Below, piece after piece: positions 1 through 15,264 of a stretch of 64,000 nt of DNA (the stretch's first letter is position 1; each line of letters opens with the position of its first letter). The DNA is from Rhytidiadelphus loreus (Eukaryota; Streptophyta; Bryopsida; Hypnales; Hylocomiaceae). The notes beneath the pieces are model-generated. The model was given only the letters and a program-made list of their open reading frames with translations. It was not told the origin of the DNA and searched no databases. The stretch covers positions 28,277,001 to 28,341,000 of the forward strand of contig OX344765.1 of assembly GCA_947034895.1 (NCBI GenBank), in the 5' to 3' direction. The translations under genes and the position numbers were made by a program.

Positions 1-2798
1 TTGTCTGGCGTTTCGTATTCACGCTTCACACAACCCCGGACTGAAGTGGCAAATTCATTGTCCTTGCGGAACAAGAACAGGAGAGGAACGTCATCAGCTA
101 TGTTGCGATTTGTGCAGTTGTCCAGCATCTCTGCCTTAGCTGGCACGTAAGATGACTGCACGCAATCATAGTCCTTCAACTTGTAGGCCACGAATTTTAT
201 GGCGGCCTTCACGTCAACCTTGCTGCGCAAAATGAAGAGCCAGACTAGTGGCTCTGACATTTTCGACTCCATAATGTCTGAGAGAAACTTCAGCAGCAGG
301 TCAATTTCAACTATTTTGTTGGTGACCTTGCTCTTCGGATACTCTCTCACGTCCAACAGCGCCAAATAAATCTCACGTTGTTGGTATTGGTACTGCGTAC
401 TGGTCACCAGTGCCTTTGCCGCAATATCAATGCCCCTGACCTGCACACTTCCAGCTGGCTCTGGAAGCCTGTACTTCAGTCGCATGAACTGAGAGAACAT
501 ATGAAGGACCTCGGGAAAATTCTTCCCCAGATCCTTCGCTCGTTTACTCCAAGCGTCGTTTTGAAGCCTCTTCTTGAAGTATTCGTTCTTCGGGTGCGAG
601 ATGAGGAAGTCCCATGATGCGGATGTAAACTTGTGTCGCGCTTTCCAGGACTTCCATGTCCTTTCAATGACATCTCCCCCATTATCTATCAGTTTAAGGG
701 CGGTTTTGATGGCTGCGAGGTCCTGGATGATCACTTTCTTTCTCTTCCTCCGCTCCACCCAATCCCCAGCAGCCATGTTATCGGGGACTAGGATTTTCGT
801 CTTGGACACAGACACCTTCGGATATGTGGCTATCCGTTTCGGCGTTTCACCGAGCAAGTGCTGCGCAAATACTCCGTAGTCCTTGTTTGTGAAATGTCCG
901 CAGTGATAGAAGAACTCTCTCTTCAGAGACATTGCTTTCCTCTTGAAGCCTTTCAGATCCTTAAATTGCAGCCCAGTTATAGGCTCAATTAACTCACCCT
1001 CTGCATGCTTCGTGAGGAATCTCTCCCAAAACGCGAAGAGATCATCGGGTAATGTGATGATCTGAATTTCATTCTTCAGATCGTTCAGGCTTTTCACACA
1101 GGCTCCTTCTCTTCCTGGGTTGAAGTTCTGATATCGATCGAGAACTGCAATGGTGAATTCCTGCTCACCAAAGAAATTCACAAATATTAGAAATGTTTAG
1201 TTTCGTGACATCATTCAGATATACATTATCCTCGAGTCGACGATACTTGTTAACCCAATATATTCACTAACACATTAATTCCTACATCACTCAATGTACC
1301 ACAGTAGTTTTATATGTCCATTTATCATTGGCTGAAACTCTTGCACTATCGTCGACTCGACGATACTTAAAAATAAATTCGCCTCACCTCGTACTTTGCC
1401 AAGTCATATACTGCCTTATTTCTCCGGGTCACCGCCTCCGTTGCTACATCTGTGGCTCTCTGGCAGGTCAACCAGATATTCCGAAGGCTAATTATCTGAT
1501 TTCCCCATGTCGGTTGGGCGTGATCAAGGTGATTTGTGTAGTTGTAGAACTTCGAGATGTTCCTTAACTTGTTTGGATTCAAGGACCACACAATCCAAGC
1601 GTCCCAAGTTTGGAGCTCTATCCTCCTAGCCTCACCGCACCCTTCCTTCTGAAGCTCCTTTGAAGCGGTTACGCTATGCTGGCCATTAATTATCATGAAT
1701 TTGCCAGTTCGTATGTCGTCCCATTTCTCCGACTTCTTCTGCAGCAGCTCGTTATTTAGATCCACAGGAATGAGGCATAGAATTTGTCGCTGCTTCTTGT
1801 GCCCTAGTTGCACAAGTTCATTTTTCACTGAGTCGACTATGTTCGTCTGCAGTGTGCGAATGATGTACTGGTCTCGCGCTATTATGCACATGTACAACCT
1901 CCTGGTCCAGAAGGAAGCATGACTTGTGATCACTCCAGAAATCTCGTTGATAAATGGCAAACTTCTCGTGCTCTTTCATTTTGGATTGTGATATCGATGG
2001 CGTTGCTTCTGCTGTCGTTAGTATTGACCCCGAACTTCCTGCCTCGGCAGTTCCACCCGGAAGGTTTGATTTTCTCCTCTTCCTACTTGATTCCCCTGGT
2101 TGCTGTTGGAGTGGATCCCGCTGCCTGGGTTGGGACATCGCTTGTGATGGTCTGGTACTGCGACTGCCCTCCCCAATACGACCAGAAGGAGGTTGCTGAC
2201 CAGCATCAGATGCTCTCCTTGTTTCTCGAGACTGATTCCCACCCACGGTTGGGAGAGGAACCATATTTGTTAACGCGTAATGGTCTAGCGTTTGCCAAAT
2301 TAGTCGCAGTCTACTTGCGTTGGATTTGGCAGTGCCGTTCCTCCAGGGAACGTATCCGCATTTTTCAAATTCTTCGTTCAAGGAATCCATTTCGGATCCC
2401 TCTAGGAAGGTCATGAGGTTCTCCAGGTCAAACTTCCCGTGGTAAGCATTGACGTCGAGTACAAGAGAGTGACAATGCTTTCCTGGGTTCCCAGTATCAT
2501 CTACATCCCGTAGGACTATGACTACGTAGTTGCTCTGGTAGTCGTCGATTAGAATGACCTTCTCTTTCATGTTCCACGGGAGATATTGGGTTTTTCCCTG
2601 TGCTCGATATCTTAAATATACGTAATTCCTCCAGCGGCTAACCCCGAAACTCCACGTATTGATATGCTCTTTTAGTTGCCACAATTTTCCATAGGTGGCC
2701 TCCATTTCAAGTAGGAATGGTTCATTGTCAATGGGGTTGTTGAAAGGCTCGAGGTGACATTCAGTCACTAAATAGTTGTAATCATCCTGAGTCGCCAT
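1..2798 (-). CDS. Gene A: ParB/sulfiredoxin-like (NGQHS) protein, frameshifted, 3' end outside window
   Basis: Two exons, read right to left: 2798-1388 and 1160 to the window edge. The start is the ATG at 2796-2798. Residues 1-185 form a conserved-looking globular region, followed by a Ser/Gln/Pro-rich linker with a basic nuclear-localisation-like stretch RKRRKSN (about residues 239-245). The frame is then lost by +1 near 1885-1895. It resumes with ARDQYIIR, then INGQHS at about 1670-1690, then a Trp-rich stretch (TWDAWIVWSLN, QPTWGNQ). The NGQHS box resembles the G-x-x-R/S loop of the ParB/sulfiredoxin fold; that assignment is inference. The second exon has about 386 codons open without a stop and is not recognised. 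The single indel suggests a recently broken gene, an assembly error or a programmed frameshift. The gene is divergent from gene B and shares its palindromic sites. Function is unknown. Confidence 0.7.
1227..1245. repeat. Palindromic 19-mer, copy 1
   Basis: TATCCTCGAGTCGACGATA, one mismatch to the consensus TATCGTCGASTCGACGATA. It lies in the intron of gene A. Confidence 0.85.
1347..1365. repeat. Palindromic 19-mer, copy 2 (perfect)
   Basis: TATCGTCGACTCGACGATA, a perfect inverted repeat around one central base. It lies in the intron of gene A, 22 bp from the splice donor. Confidence 0.9.
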
Positions 2799-2849
2799 CG
2801 CTTGATTCCTGGTTTTTCCATTTACAGAAATATTTTCAGTACACTATGA

Positions 2850-2868
2850 TAACGTCGATTCGAGGATA
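2850..2868. repeat. Palindromic 19-mer, copy 3
   Basis: Three mismatches to consensus (TAACGTCGATTCGAGGATA). It starts 52 bp upstream of the gene A start codon. Confidence 0.6.
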
Positions 2869-3063
2869 GATTAAGGTCGATGTTATCCACAGTATTAGAT
2901 CGCTTTCTGAATTGTCATGGTTTATGGACTTCCCTACTTTTAACTGAACTCAGCCTAATTGCACAAAATTTATGTGTGGGGTTTCTTTATGTATTTTTCT
3001 CCTCTATTTCTTATGGAATATGTTTATGTTCTTAATAGTTACTTGCCTTCAGTGTTTGAAATG

Positions 3064-3082
3064 CATTGTCGAGTCGACGATA
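3064..3082. repeat. Palindromic 19-mer, copy 4
   Basis: CATTGTCGAGTCGACGATA, two mismatches, in the 5' flank of gene A. Confidence 0.8.
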
Positions 3083-3257
3083 CCCACTGCAGCTTTCGGT
3101 ATGGTTGATTATGTAATGCCTCTGCATTTTTGTTTTATTTTATGACTTCATTATGTACTTTTCTGAGCACTGGTGTCAGTGACTCGTCGTTATTCGATTG
3201 CAGGTGCTGGTTGAGGTCATTAGTTTCTAATCAGTCTTTTGATTTTGGATTTCTAGT

Positions 3258-3276
3258 TATCTTCGAGCCGACGATA
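3258..3276. repeat. Palindromic 19-mer, copy 5
   Basis: TATCTTCGAGCCGACGATA, two mismatches, in the 5' flank of gene A. Confidence 0.75.
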
Positions 3277-3303
3277 GACTCTTTGTGTGTCCCAATATAT
3301 ATG

Positions 3304-3322
3304 TATCCTCGAGTCGATGATA
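3304..3322. repeat. Palindromic 19-mer, copy 6
   Basis: TATCCTCGAGTCGATGATA, two mismatches, 27 bp from copy 5 in the 5' flank of gene A. Confidence 0.75.
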
Positions 3323-3984
3323 AACCTTTTCAATGTGCAAGGAATTGATCAAGTGAACAGAAACCCTAATTCCACAACATCAGACACCTACAGTTCTCAG
3401 AGAGTTTATGGTGTTGCAAAGAAAAGTAACTACAATGTTTCAAACAAGCATTACAGTATTCTGTACGTGGTTTTCTTCAAATATAATATTGAAGAGCTGA
3501 TTCAACTAAACCCTACATGAAAGTTACAGAAAACACAGACCTTGAAATCTCTTTCTTGCTGTACTTGTGGACGCTCCTCCCAGAAAGCTTGAAGAATGAG
3601 CACAGCAACTGATAAAATGAAAGTAGAATTAGCTTAAACGAAAATTCACTGCATAGATGATTGCAAATTTGGAAGTAACCCAAAACCCTAAATCCTTCAT
3701 TTCAAACCAAAATCGAAGGACAAGCAACTTAAGTTGCTGAAATCATTGAAGTTGAAAACTATAAGACCTAAAGTCACTGAAGTTGAAAACTGATTTGAAA
3801 AAAAAAAAAAAAAAAACTTGGACTTTTCAAATCAAATCTCACACTCATTCTCGTAGTCAATCCTACACAAACCCTCAGCAACAACCCTGCACTCCACAAA
3901 ACAACATCACAAAATGAAGACTGCACATCGAAAAGAGAGAAACAACAAGAAAACAGTGGAGAAGAAAACCTAGTGAAGCACGGT

Positions 3985-4470
3985 CGGTGGTAGCAGGATT
4001 CGGCAGGATCAACGCTGGAGGAGCGCAGCAGCAGGAGCGCACGAATCCACAAGCAAGAGCGCACGCAGAAATCCAGGAAAAGAAAAGCGCCGCGCAAGTC
4101 CGCAAGCTGGAAACTCTAACTCTAACTCGGAAGCATCAGGGAGCTGCCACAAGCACAAGAAACCCCAACTCCGGCACGACCGCAAGCACAAGAAACCCTA
4201 ACTCCGCCACGGCACGCAGACAGTAGGGAAGTACAGGTTCAAAGTGCGAATCCTCCATCCGCATTCCGAGGAGAGAGAAGATTGAACGAGCCTACACCGA
4301 GCCGCCGAACAATTGCCGAAGCAATTACCAAACCTGAAGCTGAAACCGAGGCCGAGCCCCGGATACCAAACCTGAGGACAAACCTCGCCGAAGCTACTTA
4401 CTAGACATAATCCCGAGTCCCCAAGTGCCAAACCTAATGATGAACCGGAAACTTACAAAAGCAAACTTAA
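3985..4470. other. GC-richer block upstream of gene A (possible promoter/leader)
   Basis: This stretch is distinctly richer in G and C than the DNA on either side and lies about 1.2-1.7 kb upstream of the gene A start. It contains two copies of a 34-bp-period repeat (about 4145-4173 and 4179-4206, core acaagcacaagaaaccc). No convincing ORF or TATA box is seen. A promoter and untranslated leader for gene A, read leftward, is the simplest guess. A poly-A run lies just before it at 3798-3816. Confidence 0.3.
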
Positions 4471-7400
4471 ACAAAGCTTCTTAAACCTACCGAGCTTGAA
4501 ACGAAATGCCTCGAACACTATGAGGCACCCTTTTGGAGATTGGCACCAGAGGGCTAGATTTCAACATTTAAAAATATATGTCTACTTTTTACCAGCTAAA
4601 AGTTAAAAAATTTGCCTTGAATTTCCTCTTTGTATTTAAAATATGGATGAAATTGCGAAATTTGCATAAAGAAGTACTTGAATAGGACTGAAAAGTCTTT
4701 TTGTAACCAAAACATGGATGAATGTAGAAATACAATGCTTTGCCAATTTTGAAATGATCAACATCATGGCACTTTGTGAAAAAAGAAAAGAAAAGGGTTG
4801 CTACCAGTAGAAATGGAAGGCTAAAGTGCAATTCTTAAGAAGTGTACAATTTATACTAATATTTTTAGGAACATGAAGGAAATTTATAGTTGATAATTTT
4901 GAAAATTCAAAAATTATTATTGCAAATTTTAAAAACAATGAACTTAGAGATGTCCCCATGAATAGAAATTAATTCCATATGTAAAATAATTCCACGTGCA
5001 TGAAGAGCAAGCTTTTAGTATGAATCCTTTTTAATTAACTTCTAAACGATTCTGATTTTTTCTGGGATTCCCATCTCCTTGAAGACAATTTTTGAAAATA
5101 ATTATTGGAGTCTTCAAAAAAATGTGAAGAAGTTAAAAAAAAATAATAGGTTGAAGTTGTAAATAACTTGCACATGTTGAATGCATGAGCATTTTGGGAA
5201 AAACAATTTATTTATAATTTCCTAGGGGATATGCAGATGATGCCCGTAAGCTGTGCTTTAAGAAGAATTGGTCCGCAAAAGAAAAATCATCCATCTCATG
5301 GAAAAATGTAATGAAGATAAAAAAAAATGATAGGCACAAGTTTTAGGCGTCTTGTTTATTGTAAGACGCTTTGGTGTTCTATTTTATAAAATTACAGAGC
5401 ATGTCTCATTGTTTCCATGTTTTATCTTCCAAAAAAAAATGATAGAATTATAGTATACCCTAAACCCTTAGGAAATTATACTTGTGCCAAACGTATAAAA
5501 CTTTGACATATTTATGTGAAATTGAATACGTTCTAAGTATGTGACTTACAGAAATAACCCTATTGTAAGTTTTGCTAAATTTGTACATGAATTAAATTAC
5601 AAAATACTATCAAAACAATTCTTAATCGAAGAAGACGTTGTACAACATAAATTGTTTAAATTCAAAGAATTTAGAAGAGTTTGATGTCATGACCATTTAA
5701 CATTACTCTTATTTTCTTCTTTAATTTAAAGTAAAGTGGACCTTCGGAACAACCCTAGGCTAAAGTTCACTTAAAGTAGATATTATGTACCTTAAATGAA
5801 GGGTGTAGGCAAAACTTCATGCCCTACTTACTTATTATTTCCAACCATAATTGGTCAATCTTTGTACAACTTTATTAATTTAGTTAACTATGACATTGAA
5901 ATAATTAATAACACACTTTGTACAAAGAAGTACTCATGTTTACTATTGGGGCATCCCAATCCATGAGTTGAAGCGTAACTCACTTTAAAATGCACCATGA
6001 TTGTATTAGGACATTGCAATTACTTATGGTCTTTGCAATTGTGACCATTTTTTTATGTCATAATCATTATGAATCCATGCTAGCACACTTGAAGCTATTC
6101 TTTAATGTGTGTTGTTTAAAAAACAGTAAATACAAGTATGGTCAATGTTGAAGAAGTCACTCCAAAGTTCTTACAAGTAAGACCAATTAAATTATTTTTA
6201 TCTCCATGATATTAATATTGTTCTAGAAAACCACCCTAATCCTTTTTAAATTATTTTCTAAAAAATTATAAAAATTGCTTCAAAAAAATATAGGCAGATT
6301 ATATTTTCAATAACAACTGTATTTTGCCCAAAAAACTAGCATTGCCCATAACATTCTTATGATTGGTTTCAATGTACCCAACCAAAGCTCTAATTTTCAA
6401 AAGCAAGAACAAAATTTAAAGGTATTATGACTTTTTCCAATTGTTCAGTACTAATAAAGACATACAGCATGTACCTCATGTAAATAATTTCTTCCTCAAC
6501 TTCTTGTAATCATAAATATGCAACCTATTCCAATTTTTTGGACCCACCTGGTAACACGTATTGTATGCCATGTATTCTTGGGCTTGCGTTTCTACACTAC
6601 CGGTCATAGAAATATTCTTTTTACGTCAAGATTAGGTGGTACATCTCAATAAATATTAGCATCAACCTTACTTGATCATGGACCCTTCATCTCAAGAGTA
6701 TTTAGAACTTATCCCTATTTTCTTGGCCCCCGTTGACACACATATTGCATGCCATTAATTTTGTTCCTTGAATCTATAAACTGCAAGTCATGGTTTAATT
6801 CCTTCAATACAAGTATTACATAGTACTGCTCTTAAAATACACTTCAGTTGGTTAAAAAACATGTAGAAGTTTTCAATGTTTAGGAGATGTACAATTTCTG
6901 ATAGAATTCATTTCAATGAACACTATTGTATTATGTTTCCAAGGTGAATAACTCATGAACATGAAAGTCCATACCTTGTAGTTTAAAAAATCAAATGTAT
7001 TTAATTCATATAAGGAATAAGAAAAAAAATATATGTAAGTTATAAGATGTAGAGTTCAATGCATTACCAATTTCAGTTTATTGAACACTACTTTGAACCC
7101 TAAACTTATTACTATGTAAGCATCTTAATTATTGAAAAATGAATCTATAGGATGAATGGAAAACATTGTTAGACAAGGTGAGGTTCATTTGAACTATAAT
7201 TCTCCAACTTCATGCTACGCACATTAACTATTAAACTTTAGGATGAACTTCAAACACAATTCTACTTATCAGTTATTTGAATACTCATTTCTTTCCTATG
7301 TTTCTTTTTCATCCATTTTCACTAAATTTCTCAACCGAAAATCACATGAACTTCTCAAGCTTCTCTTAGTCACAAATTTTGTAGATTCCACATGCAAAAG

Positions 7401-9289
7401 GAGAGTTCAAAGCTATTCATAGTTTTAACACCCTCAGACATGATAAAACATTATAATCCTTCAACCCTTAAATGATATTGTGGTGTGTTTTCTTTTCCTT
7501 TGAGATCTCAGACATGTCTACTTCAAATTTGTAAGGTTATAAGTTTTTGTAAATGACACAACATACCAGAAAGTTGTCTTGTAGTCCAATTTAGAGCAAA
7601 TTCTTAGAGGCTCAAAACAAATCTTGGGCATTTGGGGGTAAAATATGCCAAACAAACATGATTTTAGGAAGTTCTGCTTTCCTTGCAAAAAAAATTTGTA
7701 TTTTAGAGAGTCACCTAATGGAAAAAAAACCCTCAGAGGATAAGAGGTCAAATACCCTGAATCGTGAAAGTTGAAGACCCTAAACCCTAAACCCTAAACC
7801 CTCAGCCATTGCTTGTGGGATATATTGTTTTCCAAAGTCTGTGGTAGAAAAATCCCCCTTTGGAGTAACATATATTTTTTATAAGGAATTATAATGTTTA
7901 ATCCTTATAAATAGATCTAAGTTTGTTACTGGCCTGTTTTTGTTAAAGGCTATTAAGTACTTGCTTTATACTAATTTTTGGTGGGTTTGGAGTTGTTTTA
8001 TGTATACCCTCACCAAAGTTTTAGTTACCTAATTACTAGGCTGGAATTTTTAGAAAACCTTGGTTGGAGTTAGTTTTACTCACCATTTATGATAAGATAG
8101 TCCCTCCCTCCCTCCTCATGTCACTTCAAAAACTTACCCTCCTCTTAGATTAATTGGCCATACATTTCATTTTCATTCTTTAGGAATATTGGTACCAATT
8201 TGTATGATTTTTTCATCATTGGTTACTCTATATTTCTTTTTCTTTTTAAACCTTGGGTTGGTTTGAAAAATTATTTGTGGTCCTAATTTAATTACATCAA
8301 TAGGATGTATATTAAAATTTACCACTTGAATAGCTATGGGGTTTTGTAGATTATAAAGACCAGTCCCTCATAGATAAAAGTCCAAAAGTGATATGGTTAA
8401 GCCATCACTTGTCTATACCATTCTATATTTATGGATGGTGGTTGTTATTTGGAAATCAATAGGATCTGTATGCACATGGTCTTTGTATCCATGCATGATG
8501 GACTTATGGACCCATATTAATTGTTGGGGGCCCTTATGGTACATGAGGGTTTGACTTGGCCCTTTCCTTGAGACCCAAGGCATGTTCCTTTGACCTAAAA
8601 TTAGGGTTTTTTGGAGCCCAAGCTGTTCTCTTCTAAGTTCCCTAAATTTTCTTCCCTAGTTCCCAATGAATTCTTTCTTGGTTCCCAAGGCAAAGAGAGA
8701 GTATAAAGGCTTAGTTGTAACCCTGCCTCAGCCTCTTACACCTGCTTAACTGTGGCTTGCTAAGTTGAGTTTCACAAAGGGTGATTTTTGTTGGAAGTGA
8801 CTGCATTTGTGAGGAGGGATGGCATCTTCATGGGTTTTTTAACTCACAATTTGGTGGACTATGGTTTATTTGTCATTTTCTTGCATGAAATATTAATTGA
8901 TGGGTAGTTTTCCTATTGTGATTGCAATGACACGCTGTTGTGAACTGAAGACACCTTGCATACGCAATTCTAACTAACTGTGTGTTTGTTGGATTGTATG
9001 GGTGCATGTGAGGTTCACAGCCTCTTTAGTATTTCTACCCTGACTACTTACTCCAAAGACTATGACAACTATTTTTATGGGTTACTAAATCATGTTGTAT
9101 GCTGGTTTTAGTTATTAGCTTGATCATGATGATTTTTTAGACTCTAAAAAGTTACCTGACATTTTGGAAATTTCTTCCTTGTAAGGATCTTGTTATAATT
9201 CCTTATTTGGTTTAGAAAAATACACTTCTTTATTTTGTTATCTTTTATTAAGGATGATTTGTTGGTTCTAATGTTTTTGGTATTACCTA
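4471..9289. other. AT-rich intergenic DNA, no gene seen
   Basis: I see only short chance ORFs in this stretch. The recognisable items are an interstitial telomere-type repeat at 7778-7802 and, at about 8520-8780, a TATA-containing segment (gtataaaggc at 8701-8710) that might be a retrotransposon LTR remnant. Confidence 0.5.
7778..7802. repeat. Interstitial telomere-type repeat (CCCTAAA)n
   Basis: Three perfect CCCTAAA units and a partial fourth. This is the Arabidopsis-type plant telomere heptamer and supports a plant origin. Single or double units also occur near 20461 and 24823. Confidence 0.85.
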
Positions 9290-10460
9290 AAGTTATGCTA
9301 GTTCTATTGGAAATTATTAGTACTATTGAGTCTATAATTTTTGTGGAGAAATTTCTCAAACCTTATTGATTTGGAGTTATCAATTTAGGTAGGAGATTTG
9401 CAGTCTATATTTTCTTTAAAAGCCTTGGTGATTTGATAGAATTACTTTGTATAGTACCTATCTTATCAAGTTTTATTTGGAATTCATTAGTCATATTTTA
9501 AACTATGATTTTCCAACTTAAAGTTTTGGCTTGATTGATTTGATAGGCCTTACTTTAATAGTATCTATCTCATCAAATCTTATATGGAGATTATTAGTAC
9601 TACGATGTCTTTGATTTCCATAAAAACTTTTAAATCATTATTGATTGGATGGTTTGACTTGAGAAAAGTAGCCATAGCATCAACTAAATAGAAAAGTGAT
9701 TAGTCTGTGATTTCTTGAAAATCTTTTTTAGAGCTTTGTTGATTTGATAATTGGCAGTATCTATCTTATCATAAACTCTGGAAATCATTAGTTTGGTTTT
9801 ATCTATGATTTCTTTAGATGTTTTCAAAAGCCTCTAATTAAATAGCTTTATTTAGGCTAATGCCTAAATTACCAAATTACAATTTGGAAATTATTTGTAG
9901 TGTTTTAACTATGATTTCTTATTTTGTTTTTAGAACCATATTGATTTGGTGGTTTAAACTCAAAGCAGTATCCATCTTATTAAATGTTTGAAAATCATTT
10001 TTATTAAGACTTTTTAGGGGCCTCTAAGATTTGATAGTTTTACTTTGTAATGTCTATCTTAGCAATTGGATATCATTAGTAGTGAATCCTCTATGATTTC
10101 TTTACGGCTCTGATGATCTATAGGCCTAATCTGAAAAGTACCTATATGATCAATCACAAATTAGAAATTATTAATACTATTATGATTTCTTTTGGAAAGA
10201 TTGTTGATTTAGTGGTTTAAATTACATCAACAATAGTTTGGAAATTATTTTAAGCCTTGATTTGATAAGGTTTTATTTGGTAGTGCCTATCTTATCAATT
10301 AATCATTTGGAAATCAATAGTTATGTTTATTCTATGATTTCCTTGTATATTTTATGGCTTGGTTGATTTGATAAAGGTTAAACTTGGAATTTGCCTTGTC
10401 TATCAATCATTGTTTGGAAAGTAATAGTCTTGAAAAGTTTATGATTTGGAAATTTATAGG
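9290..10460. repeat. Degenerate tandem satellite, period about 85-110 bp
   Basis: About ten diverged units follow one another. Each contains a tttgatag-like start, a box like tatctatcttatca, then ggaaatcattagta, then tatgatttctttg. The tatctatcttatca-like box is seen near 9457, 9564, 9668, 9758, 9860, 9967, 10050, 10138, 10282 and 10393. No coding potential is seen. Confidence 0.65.
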
Positions 10461-11366
10461 AAAAGCCATGTATAGGGATGTCCCTCCCACCCACCCGGGT
10501 TTCCTAAAAAACGTACACCTTAAATGCATACCCACTTTTATAAAACCCTGGAATCATGGCGAAAGGCTGAATCTGAAATAGATAGAATCGCACGAAAGCA
10601 CTCCTAAAAGGATGGCACTTTGTTTTTTCATGCTCTGACAGCGAAGCGCATCTCCTCGAGGTCAACGGAATACGGAAATAGAGGGCAACTGTGAAAGAAA
10701 GGAATCTTCTTTTATTGTATTCTTGTCAAAAAGTCTTTAAAAGCGCTCCCGAAAACGGGAAGCATTTAATTATTGTTGTCAGTGCAAGTGCATGAATGAG
10801 CCGTTAATATGCCGTTGATTTCTACAAATTTTGAATTCTAAAATGTTCGCGCCCATTCTTTCCCGCCCTTCCTACGGTACAGATTCTTAGTTTTTATTGG
10901 GTACCTTCATGCCGCGGCCTCGAATTCGCTTTGGATCCGCGCACCTGAAGTTCTTCTCTTCATTTTCTTGCAGCTCTAGCACTTGCGGACACCACGTTTT
11001 CTACTTATTTCCCAAGAAGACTTTGTTTTTCTGTTGCTGGTTATGTAGTCTGTGGAGAGCTCCCGAATCTCTCCCGTGGTCCTTCATTCTCAGAGTTAGT
11101 AAGTTGTATTTTGATTTGGGCTTTTCCACAGTACTAATCTTTGTCTACATGTTTGTGCTTCGAGTCGTTTCTTGAATGATCCTATGTTCATATTTGTGAT
11201 GTAAGTATTTGTCTGTTCGTAGTAATGAATGAGTTTTTGGACTTCTGGTATGGAAGAAGATGTGTGTGTGAATTCTATCGCTTTGACTAGTTTTGTGCAC
11301 TTCCGATTCTTACGGCGGAAAATGCGGAAATATGTTCTGCGTACTTATAATGTCTTCTATACATGG
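10461..11366. other. 5' flank of gene B, distal part
   Basis: This is more GC-balanced than the satellite before it, with a C-rich patch (cctcccacccacccggg, about 10484-10500) and a CpG-containing stretch at 10900-11100. It probably holds the promoter and non-coding leader of gene B, because the gene B start codon follows a splice-acceptor-like site and so needs an upstream exon. I could not place that exon or a TATA box. Confidence 0.3.
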
Positions 11367-11385
11367 TATTGTCGAGTCGACGATA
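11367..11385. repeat. Palindromic 19-mer, copy 7
   Basis: TATTGTCGAGTCGACGATA, one mismatch, in the 5' flank of gene B. Confidence 0.85.
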
Positions 11386-11414
11386 ACACAATTCAGTCAT
11401 GAAAATCGCAGAGT

Positions 11415-11433
11415 CATAGTTAAGTTGACAATA
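11415..11433. repeat. Possible decayed palindromic 19-mer
   Basis: 13 of 19 positions match the consensus (ends GACAATA). It is listed only because it sits between two good copies. Confidence 0.25.
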
Positions 11434-11505
11434 CCCTTGAGCAACTAATTATGGATTTTCATCGTAAAATCCAAGATACCCATCCTCCACCAAATTTTGG
11501 AGGGT

Positions 11506-11524
11506 TATCATCGACTCGACGATA
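11506..11524. repeat. Palindromic 19-mer, copy 8
   Basis: TATCATCGACTCGACGATA, one mismatch, 5' flank of gene B. Confidence 0.85.
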
Positions 11525-11813
11525 ATAATTTTCAACGGAATGCTTCGGGAATCCTGAATTTGATGGAATTCCATGCCCACCTAATTATGAAGAGTATCAT
11601 CCAATTAACGGTAGAAAATTTCTCAGTAATGAAATTGTACGGAATTAACTGTTTTGAGCAAGTGATTGTAAGTACATATAATTTATTGGATAATAATTAT
11701 TCTGGAAATATAGGTTATTTAATTAATTCCGTTGCCTACAATAAAAAATTCCATCCCGTTTTTGTCTTACAGTGGAGTCCCAGAATAGTGGTTTGCCATC
11801 ACCTACCTCATCT

Positions 11814-11832
11814 TATCGTCGAGTCGAGGATA
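11814..11832. repeat. Palindromic 19-mer, copy 9
   Basis: TATCGTCGAGTCGAGGATA, one mismatch, 5' flank of gene B. Confidence 0.85.
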
Positions 11833-12053
11833 AGCTGGAGTTCTCCTTTAGTCAAGGGCACTAACTACTTTGACATTGATGTACACTCCTTTAGTAAAGC
11901 TATTGTGTTCATCTTCAATCGAAAAATCAATATACTAGACAAAGATGTCGTTCTTGTTGTAATTGTGTATAATTACTTGTTCTTTGAGATGACATGATGA
12001 TTACTGGAATTGCGACATACACTCTTAGTCATGAAAATTCATGATTATTACTT

Positions 12054-12072
12054 TATCCTTGAATTGACTATA
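12054..12072. repeat. Possible decayed palindromic 19-mer
   Basis: 14 of 19 positions match the consensus (TATCCTTGAATTGACTATA). Confidence 0.3.
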
Positions 12073-12223
12073 TTTACATAGATTGTGTTCATCATGAAGT
12101 TCAGGTATTGTGCTTTATTCAAAGTGTCATGTCACGTAGTGAATGAATCTAATAGTGTAATTGCCTAAAATTTGGGGTCCTCTGTTTTCTTTTTTCTACT
12201 AAGGAATTTGAACTTTCACTGAT

Positions 12224-12242
12224 TATCGTCGAGTCGATGGTA
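12224..12242. repeat. Palindromic 19-mer, copy 10
   Basis: TATCGTCGAGTCGATGGTA, two mismatches, about 150 bp upstream of the gene B start codon. Confidence 0.8.
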
Positions 12243-12339
12243 TTGATGATCCACTAATGAGATGAAAATCTAGTTATGAGAGATTCCAGTACAATTTGGA
12301 ACGAATTCCGTGACCTGCATTTTCCATTTGCGTTTTGTT

Positions 12340-12358
12340 TATCGTCGATACGAAGATT
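12340..12358. repeat. Palindromic 19-mer, copy 11
   Basis: TATCGTCGATACGAAGATT, four mismatches, with the left half-site intact. It lies 32 bp upstream of the gene B start codon. Confidence 0.55.
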
Positions 12359-12390
12359 AAACTTTCTCATGTCATCTGATTTTTTGCAGA

Positions 12391-15264
12391 ATGGATATTC
12401 ATGGACCTGATGAATTTGCGGTTCCAGTACCCATATTACCTCCTGGTGTCGTTGGCTGCGAGGGGTTGCCTCGGCCATCCTGGATTACGAAGTGTGTCAC
12501 CCTACAAAATGAAGCAGGAGATGACGTTGCAAAAGGAGTTTGCCAAAGTGTTGATGTGGATCTTGTCATCGATAGTGATGGGAAGCCCTTAGGTGATGAC
12601 CGTGTTGCAGTGCAAATTGCAGAGTCATTATTCGAGGCAGAAGTCTCTTCAGGGTGGATGTGGTCAATGAAGGCATGGCACATCAAGCAAGTGTTCTTGA
12701 ATGGTATCAGTTTGTATGACCATGACCAGACACATATATACAATACGGCTATGAATGCCCTGAATCGCCGCATTCGAGTTGGTGTACGTTCTTATGAGAC
12801 GTCTCGGGAGAGGAGGGAGCAAGTCTTGCCTCCCAAAAAAGAATCCTTTCTCACTCCACAAGCAATTATTGAAGTGTCTACAAAACCATGTTGCCAAAAG
12901 AATTGCACACAACATTTTCCGCGTCACGAAATTGAGTCTATACGGTATCAATTGCATGTGAAAGGTGGAGTGTATGTCCGCAAGCTTTGCCTTCTTGAAG
13001 CACATAGGCAATCGCGCAAAGACACTGCTGGAAAGGAATGGATAACTTTGAGAAACATTGATGTATGTCTCACTACGTGGTGGACCATCCATGGGATTTC
13101 AAAAGCTACCTTCTACAGGTTCAAGCACATGGCCAAAGAGGGGAAGGAAGCAGAGGCACATGGGAATTTGGGATTGAAAAAACCTCGTACACAAACTCTA
13201 CAAGCGACCGCTACACTTCGGACGTTGATTGTAGGTGAAGCCGACAAAATGCCACACAAATCAAGAACACTAGATTCTGGGGAGAAAGTCCCTGCAATGG
13301 TTTTGCCGTCAGTGTTTCGTTGGAGTGAGCAACTTCCAAAAATCAACAAGGCTAATGAAGCATTCAATTTGCCTCCAATCTCCTCCAGTGGTTTAAGCAA
13401 CATTCGGCGTGCATCTTTCTCTAAATATGCTACAAAGGCTCGCGGAGACTCTTTCTCTAGATGTGGTTTGTGCGATACATACAAGCAATTGAAGAGTGCT
13501 TGTACTCCGTTGTCCATTGCGCAAGACAAGTGGGGGAGAATTTTAACTACCCATCTTAGTGGGCAAAAGGCCCACAGGGAACTTTATTATGGGTTCAGGC
13601 AAATATCTGAGGAATTTCCTAAAAAAATGTTGTGCATCATCCATGACAAAATGGATCATTCAAAGACCGCCTCACCTCACTTTTCTCACAAGACAAAAGC
13701 AACTGATTCTTTTATGAAAATGCCTGTGGCTATAACGGGTATGATTGCTCACAGTCATGGCGATGTTCGGTATGCTCACTACAGCTTAGACATTTTTCCA
13801 ACGGACTCAAATCATACTGTTGGATCTATTGCGAGGTTGTTGCGTGATCTCGAAGGAGAGCCCAAGAATTCATCGCGTACATTATTTTCAGAGGAGAGGA
13901 GTCAATCCACTTTAACTCATGCGTTGTTGGATGGCTCAGACATTTGCTTAGATTCTCTCCTTCCTCCTCCTGGAGAACCAATCCCTTATAGGCCTTTGCC
14001 GCCGATATTGGCCCTCCAACTTGACAATGCCTCAAGGGACAACAAGAATCGATGGGTTTTTGCTTTTTGCTCACTAATGGTTTACAAAGGCATTTTCCGC
14101 GAAATATATATTAACTTCCTCATTGTTGGCCACACTCATGAAGACATTGCTGCTCTTTTTGGTAGATGGAGCACAATGTTGAAGAGCAAGGATTATCCTA
14201 CACTTCCCAAGCTCATGAAATCCTTTATGGACTGTGAAACCCACCCCATCATTCCTCATTTCATTGAAGAAGTTCCTGATTTCAAGCAATTTGTGCAAGG
14301 ATACTTGAGTACAGGCGGGGATTTTTTGGAAGGTCATTCAACATCACAACAATTCAAATTCTACATGGATTCAAGTGGATGGCCCTTGATGGAGTACAAG
14401 AACTTGTGTACAGACAAGGATTGGTTGCCACAACATGGTAGAGGAATTCGCTTATGGGCGGAAACTGAAGATGGACGTCCCAAAGTGCCGAGTGGTTCTC
14501 CACCACCTTTGGCTCCCCAACAGATGAAATCATTGGGAGAGATCAAAAAGGGTTTGGATGGTTTCATTGCACATTGGAATAGAATGGCCAACAACGAAGA
14601 TTCTGGATCTTTTGGGAGAAAGAATGACCCCATAAAAGATTATTGGAAAGGTGTGAGAACCGCTCTAGATGAACCACTACTGGTGCGTGAGACCTTAAAA
14701 GATGGATTTTGGCCGGCTTCTAGGGTCACGGAAGAACTAGAAGACACAAGGCGAGAAGATGGCACAGTGCGTGAAGAGTTTGCAGAAGATCCACCTTTTG
14801 TTGGACGCAGACGTGATCGACCTAGACCTTCATTCCGTATTGCACGTGATGTATTTGCAGGTTATTTTGTGGTAGTACGTCCCGCTGATGAAGATCCAAA
14901 GCCGTTTTGGTTGGCAAGGGCGCTAACAAATCCGAATCCAGATCCAGGGCATATTCATCAGATCCAAATTCAATATTGGACACATGTTTCTGGTCGTCAC
15001 ATTGATTTGGATACATATGCTGGATGGGACACAAAAGTAGGGAATGTGTGGCGCGAAGACTGTGTCATCCCACCGTGTTGGTCAAATACGGACTGTATAA
15101 TGACAACTTTTAAGCCACGTGGAAAAAGGGGGGCCGAAGATCAACCTCAAGTTATTACAAAAGTTACAATTCCAAAGCCGCAGATCAACATCATCAAATC
15201 ATCAGTGGAGGCCTTTGTATCTAATTCAAGCAATGGTGCTTTCTCGGTTGGAGAAGAAGAATAG
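12391..15264 (+). CDS. Gene B: DUF7869-type protein with DDE-like motifs (mobile-element associated)
   Basis: One open exon of 957 codons ending in TAG. The ATG follows ttttttgcag|A, a good splice acceptor, so an upstream leader exon is likely. Visible parts, in order: a Cys cluster CCQKNC (167-172); a CGLC...C finger-like motif (358-371); IIHDKMDHSK with D419/D422; LQLDNASRD with D545; VGHTHEDI with H581, H583, E584 and D585; and a C-terminal Trp-rich, SH3/tudor-like stretch (about 828-890, FWLARA, IQYWTHV). The D...D...E spacing recalls an RNase H-fold (DDE) transposase or integrase. I recognise the LDN and HTHED pair as the DUF7869 type found in transposon-like plant genes; catalytic activity is inference. 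The absence of any stop over 2.9 kb suggests recent selection or recent arrival. Palindromic 19-mers crowd its 5' flank. Confidence 0.8.
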   Translation: MDIHGPDEFAVPVPILPPGVVGCEGLPRPSWITKCVTLQNEAGDDVAKGVCQSVDVDLVIDSDGKPLGDDRVAVQIAESLFEAEVSSGWMWSMKAWHIKQVFLNGISLYDHDQTHIYNTAMNALNRRIRVGVRSYETSRERREQVLPPKKESFLTPQAIIEVSTKPCCQKNCTQHFPRHEIESIRYQLHVKGGVYVRKLCLLEAHRQSRKDTAGKEWITLRNIDVCLTTWWTIHGISKATFYRFKHMAKEGKEAEAHGNLGLKKPRTQTLQATATLRTLIVGEADKMPHKSRTLDSGEKVPAMVLPSVFRWSEQLPKINKANEAFNLPPISSSGLSNIRRASFSKYATKARGDSFSRCGLCDTYKQLKSACTPLSIAQDKWGRILTTHLSGQKAHRELYYGFRQISEEFPKKMLCIIHDKMDHSKTASPHFSHKTKATDSFMKMPVAITGMIAHSHGDVRYAHYSLDIFPTDSNHTVGSIARLLRDLEGEPKNSSRTLFSEERSQSTLTHALLDGSDICLDSLLPPPGEPIPYRPLPPILALQLDNASRDNKNRWVFAFCSLMVYKGIFREIYINFLIVGHTHEDIAALFGRWSTMLKSKDYPTLPKLMKSFMDCETHPIIPHFIEEVPDFKQFVQGYLSTGGDFLEGHSTSQQFKFYMDSSGWPLMEYKNLCTDKDWLPQHGRGIRLWAETEDGRPKVPSGSPPPLAPQQMKSLGEIKKGLDGFIAHWNRMANNEDSGSFGRKNDPIKDYWKGVRTALDEPLLVRETLKDGFWPASRVTEELEDTRREDGTVREEFAEDPPFVGRRRDRPRPSFRIARDVFAGYFVVVRPADEDPKPFWLARALTNPNPDPGHIHQIQIQYWTHVSGRHIDLDTYAGWDTKVGNVWREDCVIPPCWSNTDCIMTTFKPRGKRGAEDQPQVITKVTIPKPQINIIKSSVEAFVSNSSNGAFSVGEEE

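Follow-up and report, generated by a model that had tools for sequence, protein, structure and literature searches.

Related systems

The Arabidopsis transposon VANDAL21 has its own protein, VANC21, which binds a short motif found in the non-coding regions of that element, introns among them; VANC6 acts on other elements through other motifs, according to the excerpted text of the source (PMC5735166). Here we describe a locus of the moss Rhytidiadelphus loreus, a stretch of 64 kb (contig OX344765.1, positions 28,277,001 to 28,341,000; hereafter, the window), in which a 19-bp palindrome is dispersed around two divergent genes, A and B. With slightly better than even confidence, these palindromes are read as cognate recognition sites of a two-gene mobile element of mosses, which would be bound as DNA by the gene A protein in a VANC-like role.

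The likeness to VANC/VANDAL, as far as the excerpted text on VANDAL21 and VANDAL6 goes (PMC5735166, PMC10398659), is as follows. First, a transposase gene and further genes are combined in one transposon. Second, a short motif is concentrated in introns and upstream regions of the element and is poor in coding sequence; none of the 32 moss sites in the window and in three related loci (L001-L003, described below) overlaps an exon, across about 16.4 kb of exon. Third, the motif varies by subfamily; the moss motif does so with 2 changes on the gene A tree, a value as low as which was found in 0 of 200 shuffles, and linked descent would also give this result. In contrast, VANC motifs are 8-9 bp long and form tandem repeats of the same orientation, whereas the moss palindrome has 19 bp and is dispersed, and none of the 16 tandem arrays in the window overlaps a palindrome site. 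VANC proteins carry DUF1985, for which gene A gave no Pfam match at E<=1 (25 exon-1 and 45 exon-2 relatives), and demethylation has been demonstrated for the VANC system, whereas the moss element is known here from sequence alone. The moss system may follow the same logic as VANC/VANDAL with an unrelated protein; because of its different protein, its palindromic motif and its dispersed sites, it is not filed as a VANC member.

Gene A can also be compared with ParB-parS of bacteria and plasmids, in which a palindromic loading site lies near the gene. The moss palindromes do adjoin gene A, and loading at them is putative; their sequences differ from those of the ParB-parS sites, and no partner ATPase was seen for the moss element. 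Gene A further differs from ParB and from the phage ParB-methylase fusions in being a eukaryotic spliced gene and in having GQHS for the GERR-type motif, GERR being the nucleotide-binding motif of ParB.

Sola-type transposons are characterized by terminal inverted repeats and a 4-bp target duplication, and they may be linked to DUF7869, the domain of gene B. Ends and target duplications of the moss element were not found, its left end lying outside the window. According to the excerpted text of PMC10741241, Sola transposons have a DDD transposase and are present in Physcomitrella patens; the likeness to the present element consists in the occurrence in mosses and in acidic positions of gene B that possibly form a DDD triad. 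A search of the literature gave no paper on DUF7869, and searches with the half-site and core strings and with combined terms gave no moss element by the titles listed, which does not prove that none is in print.

Palindromes around genes A and B

When the whole window was scanned against the consensus TATCGTCGASTCGACGATA with a threshold of <=4 mismatches, 11 copies were found, all around the two genes; the gene A intron holds two of them, the 524 bp before the gene A start codon another four, and the 1,024 bp before the gene B start codon the remaining five (Table 1). This bears out the original prediction, which had counted at least 11 copies with 0-4 mismatches and had placed them in this way, none in the recognised exons. 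The scan gave no further position at this threshold and two positions with 5 mismatches (12054 and 18789). The count is beyond chance: 60 first-order Markov windows of the same dinucleotide make-up had a mean of 0.017 copies at <=4 mismatches, with a maximum of 1, and zero matches at <=3 mismatches. A de novo search for 19-bp odd palindromes also recovered several of the sites, amid AT-rich chance palindromes.

Inside the clusters the palindromes are spaced by 46 to 1,500 bp. A longer dispersed repeat as the source of the copies was ruled out, as the sequences flanking the 19 bp show no relation to one another (mean identity between pairs 26%, versus 27% for random), and no Rfam family matched the window at gathering thresholds. 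Among the 22 half-sites, TATC-TCGA is nearly fixed and the fifth letter is free (13 G, 4 C, 3 A and 2 T). The original prediction had both C and G occur as the central base; one of these stands there in nine copies, the other two having T on the + strand. The term 'upstream' in the original prediction holds for the positions of the sites and needs correction as to their nature: those of gene B probably lie in an intron of the 5'-untranslated region (5'-UTR) rather than in a promoter, and those of gene A perhaps do so as well, an acceptor preceding its ATG with only weak candidates for the donor.

For gene A exon 1, gene A exon 2 and gene B alike, a relative (P0068, P0098 and P0010, respectively) has its entry on a contig of 46,150 bases, and there are protein clusters with hundreds of members for each gene (P0011, 647; P0119, 700). 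From these contig entries and the size of the clusters, genes A and B are suggested to be one multi-copy mobile element. A prokaryotic or viral origin was considered and rejected; the viral contigs searched gave no loci related to the three protein alignments used and no exact palindromes of the three spellings described below, and a tblastn search of plasmids gave no match to gene B.

Recurrence of the palindrome beside gene A relatives

Genome contigs were scanned with relatives of gene A exon 1, which yielded the three loci L001-L003 (contigs CADCWO010000074.1, CADCWO010000243.1 and CADCWO010000269.1), all from the cyanobacterial metagenome-assembled genome (MAG) AVDCRST_MAG81. The contigs carry genes of moss-like elements and are read as eukaryotic contamination because these genes have spliceosomal introns. 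In a de novo palindrome scan, all three of these gene A relatives, the ones examined as DNA, were found to have 19-bp odd palindromes at matching places, spelled TATCCTCGASTCGAGGATA in L001 (5 sites) and TCAGCTCGASTCGAGCTGA in L002 and L003 (8 sites each). Length, odd centre and the core TCGASTCGA are constant across the window and the loci, and the outer letters vary, in both halves together. This gives three spellings of the half-site, TATCG, TATCC and TCAGC, each followed by TCGA; the latter two occur in contigs of one MAG. Within one copy the change affects every site and both of its halves, and a shared reader is called for on this account. Introns with both ends recognisable hold 16 of the 21 locus sites; four in L001 lie upstream, beside the acceptor before the ATG, and the placement of the one at L002 6592 is unsettled. 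In a further relative, P0064, a palindrome is encoded at the intron position that copy 2 occupies in the window. The arms beyond the 19 bp in L001-L003 carry copy-specific yet complementary letters, up to 17 pairs at L003 4392.

For other gene A relatives, use was made of unspliced open reading frames (ORFs) that extend past the exon end into the intron, and the peptides of 145 such ORFs were checked for compatibility with the palindrome. Thirteen fit one of the three spellings exactly (4, 8 and 2 for the individual spellings) and 31 do so within one mismatch (16, 10 and 7), whereas 60 permuted half-site motifs used as a control gave 0 exact fits and at most 1 within one mismatch. Self-symmetry at position 5/15 was seen in 13 of 14 frame-0 read-through sites (8 P-E, 5 R-D and 1 P-D).

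The spellings were then placed on a gene A exon-1 tree with 28 rows, of which 17 had a readable spelling. The 2 changes given above are the least possible for three states, and the TATCG group forms one side of a branch with support 98/96. The result was unchanged with 16 labels (P0066 dropped) and with 14 (P0070 and P0078 dropped as well).

Proteins of the putative element

The predicted fold of the gene A relatives consists of a ParB/sulfiredoxin domain and a DNA-methyltransferase domain. Folds of both kinds occur in sequence-specific DNA-binding proteins. In contrast to the beta-class N6/N4 DNA methyltransferases (CcrM, M.BceJIV and M.RsrI), with their DPPY-type motif IV, the catalytic motif IV [DNS]PP[YWFH] is found in 0 of 45 exon-2 relatives, and so is the DPFxGSG-type motif; because both are lacking, the methyltransferase-like domain is probably no catalyst. 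Searches of the PDB by sequence gave no significant match for three profiles, searches of defence families gave zero matches at E<=1 for three proteins, and NCBIfam gave nothing close to a cut-off. Downstream of the gene A relative in L002 lies an exon resembling FCP1/NIF phosphatases (L002 5224-6024), in frame by consensus splicing, whose DxDx motif reads DLNG.

Gene B matches DUF7869 with E 1.4e-42 and is probably the transposase of the element. Ceratodon purpureus and Physcomitrium patens are among the species with related proteins, and the conserved acidic positions in the gene B alignment (A1) are D419/D422, D545 and D587, which could form the DDD triad. The original prediction had one factor, for instance a protein of the element itself, act on both genes. 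This receives support on the side of gene A, from the recurrence beside relatives, the joint change of both halves, the agreement of spelling with protein phylogeny and the predicted folds; the evidence from gene B relatives is thin.

Proposed mode of recognition

In the reading preferred here, gene A would be the reader, with its ParB/sulfiredoxin-like domain and its catalytically degenerate beta-class methyltransferase-like domain, and gene B (DUF7869) the probable transposase. A homodimer of the gene A protein, or its two domains, would bind the palindrome in its double-stranded DNA form, both in gene A itself and in gene B, within their introns and 5' regions. Binding would mark copies of the element, so that both genes are expressed or protected from silencing, as by VANC on VANDAL transposons, and reader and site would diverge jointly in each subfamily. 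If this is true, a strategy known from one group of Arabidopsis transposons, anti-silencing or self-recognition through private DNA codes, had a separate origin in mosses, where an unrelated ParB-methyltransferase protein serves it. The strategy would then be a general one among transposons, and the reader residues that fix the site could be mapped with the help of the natural series of spellings. The eukaryotic use of a ParB fold joined to a methyltransferase fold, as predicted here, is also put on record.

Several points weigh against this reading. As to the protein, GQHS stands at the position of the ParB motif GERR, within I-N-G-Q-H-S, which is invariant in 25 of 25 rows of the exon-1 alignment (A2) and leaves no GERR-type nucleotide motif. 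The homology of the window's gene A to P0063 and P0064 switches reading frame at 1887/1888, where about four of their residues have no counterpart, and this copy looks frameshifted, unless there is a sequence error. As to the sites, firmly bounded introns are lacking for 5 of the 21 locus sites (the four upstream in L001 and L002 6592) and for 9 of the 11 in the window. No gene B is present in L001-L003, and a readable site upstream of the start was found in 1 of 62 ORFs homologous to gene B (P0003). Three of the 13 exact read-through ORFs are the L001-L003 genes themselves (P0086, P0088 and P0089), and 8 of the 31 within one mismatch have one near-identical stretch (GIVASTI) in common. With two mismatches the scan becomes noisy: it gave matches in 15 of 25 gene A ORFs, compared with 0-4 after shuffling, and some of the matches fall within the protein body; for gene B relatives it gave 4 of 62, three of these inside the protein body. 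As to the tree, its labels were assigned manually on the basis of read-through tails, the P0066 tail stops within the site, P0069 with mixed halves was excluded, P0070 and P0078 have two spellings, and a long-branch warning concerns L002/L003 and P0087. Linked inheritance alone would also make spelling track the gene A tree. Finally, there are the distance of the sites from the 5' splice site and the symmetry of their outer arms. Introns 1 and 2 have the start of their first palindrome 15-30 nt past the donor GT in 23 of 24 cases and 21-26 nt past it in 17 of 24, as counted in ORFs with a found site (20 hand-picked ORFs, the window and the loci); this fixed spacing is not accounted for by DNA binding alone. 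In the arms outside the 19 bp, L001-L003 show symmetry within the individual copy for 72 of 105 pairs at positions 10-14 (shuffled mean 56.5, with 5 of 5,000 shuffles as high). This may reflect a hairpin constraint, or template switching or other palindrome-making mutation; the corresponding count in the window is 20 of 55, and 541 of 5,000 shuffles were as high.

These last observations are the strength of the main alternative, in which a pre-mRNA hairpin near the 5' splice site, read by a protein of the element or of the host, controls splicing of the element's introns. It would also fit with the intronic position of those sites for which both intron ends were identified (16 of 21 in L001-L003) and with the covariation at position 5/15. 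However, the centre, which would be the loop, reads 16 C, 12 G and 4 A/T in the sense direction. C or G thus stands there in 28 of 32 sites, the pattern of a C:G pair that can be read on either strand; this is natural for a base pair of DNA and odd for an RNA loop. In the window, moreover, sequence is conserved but pairing is not, the pair at position 5 being broken in 8 of 11 sites and the other eight pairs in 8 of 88. The sites of gene B and of intron 3 are far from the donor (166 to 241 nt), and the distance data are biased to short values because ORF tails end at the first stop. Recognition as DNA is favoured on these grounds, and we consider an RNA hairpin rather unlikely, though deserving of weight.

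A bolder version of recognition by the gene A protein, which we regard as unlikely, would make the locus a eukaryotic ParB/parS-like system in a transposon. A protein composed of ParB and a dead methyltransferase would load at self-specific palindromes at a set distance from 5' splice sites, and would protect the chromatin of the element or control its transcription and splicing, with a private code for each subfamily and, apparently, the FCP1/NIF phosphatase-like extension in one of them.

It is quite improbable that the palindromes are internal binding sites of the gene B transposase, or tiny palindromes that were spread and kept symmetric by template switching and have no regulatory role. 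Subterminal transposase sites are a known type of repeat, and the copy-specific symmetric arms fit palindrome-correcting mutation. Yet the sites lie in introns near the starts of two divergent genes, away from the ends of the element, random spread would also have reached the remaining 50 kb and the exons, and the matching placement recurs in gene A relatives. That the sites bind a host transcription or chromatin factor, whose binding the element merely exploits or suffers, is very unlikely: the window offers no site away from the element for comparison, but there are three spellings, TATCC and TCAGC in contigs of one MAG (not necessarily one host), and the spelling tracks the gene A subfamily; one host factor would not read all three spellings.

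Feature coordinates and minor observations

The exon models in Table 1 are our own, made from homology and splice consensus.

Table 1. Coordinates of genes, introns and palindrome copies in the window
Feature	Position	Strand	Remarks
Gene A first coding exon	1388..2798	-	ATG 2798; ParB/sulfiredoxin-like domain by relation to P0063
Gene A intron 1	1161..1387	-	GTGAGG...GAGCAG; contains copies 1 and 2
Gene A second coding exon	1..1160	-	continues off window; degenerate beta-class DNA-methyltransferase-like domain by relation to P0094 (64% identical)
Palindrome copy 1	1227..1245	.	gene A intron; TATCCTCGAGTCGACGATA, 1 mismatch
Palindrome copy 2	1347..1365	.	gene A intron; 0 mismatches; start 22 nt past donor GT, sense direction
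Palindrome copy 3	2850..2868	.	upstream of gene A; 3 mismatches
Palindrome copy 4	3064..3082	.	upstream of gene A; 2 mismatches
Palindrome copy 5	3258..3276	.	upstream of gene A; 2 mismatches
Palindrome copy 6	3304..3322	.	upstream of gene A; 2 mismatches
Palindrome copy 7	11367..11385	.	upstream of gene B; 1 mismatch
Palindrome copy 8	11506..11524	.	upstream of gene B; 1 mismatch
Palindrome copy 9	11814..11832	.	upstream of gene B; 1 mismatch
Palindrome copy 10	12224..12242	.	upstream of gene B; 2 mismatches
Palindrome copy 11	12340..12358	.	upstream of gene B; 4 mismatches, weakest copy
Inferred 5'-UTR intron of gene B	11201..12390	+	candidate donor GTAAGT at 11201, acceptor TTTTTTGCAG before ATG 12391; contains copies 7-11
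Gene B	12391..15264	+	one uninterrupted frame, 957 aa; DUF7869, probable transposase

The gene B relative P0018 of Ceratodon purpureus has the locus name KC19_VG078600, in which VG, we presume, may denote the V sex chromosome. Between genes A and B, seven diverged 34-bp repeats (TTGGAAATTATTAGT...) are found at 9307-10447 of the window and are perhaps part of the element.

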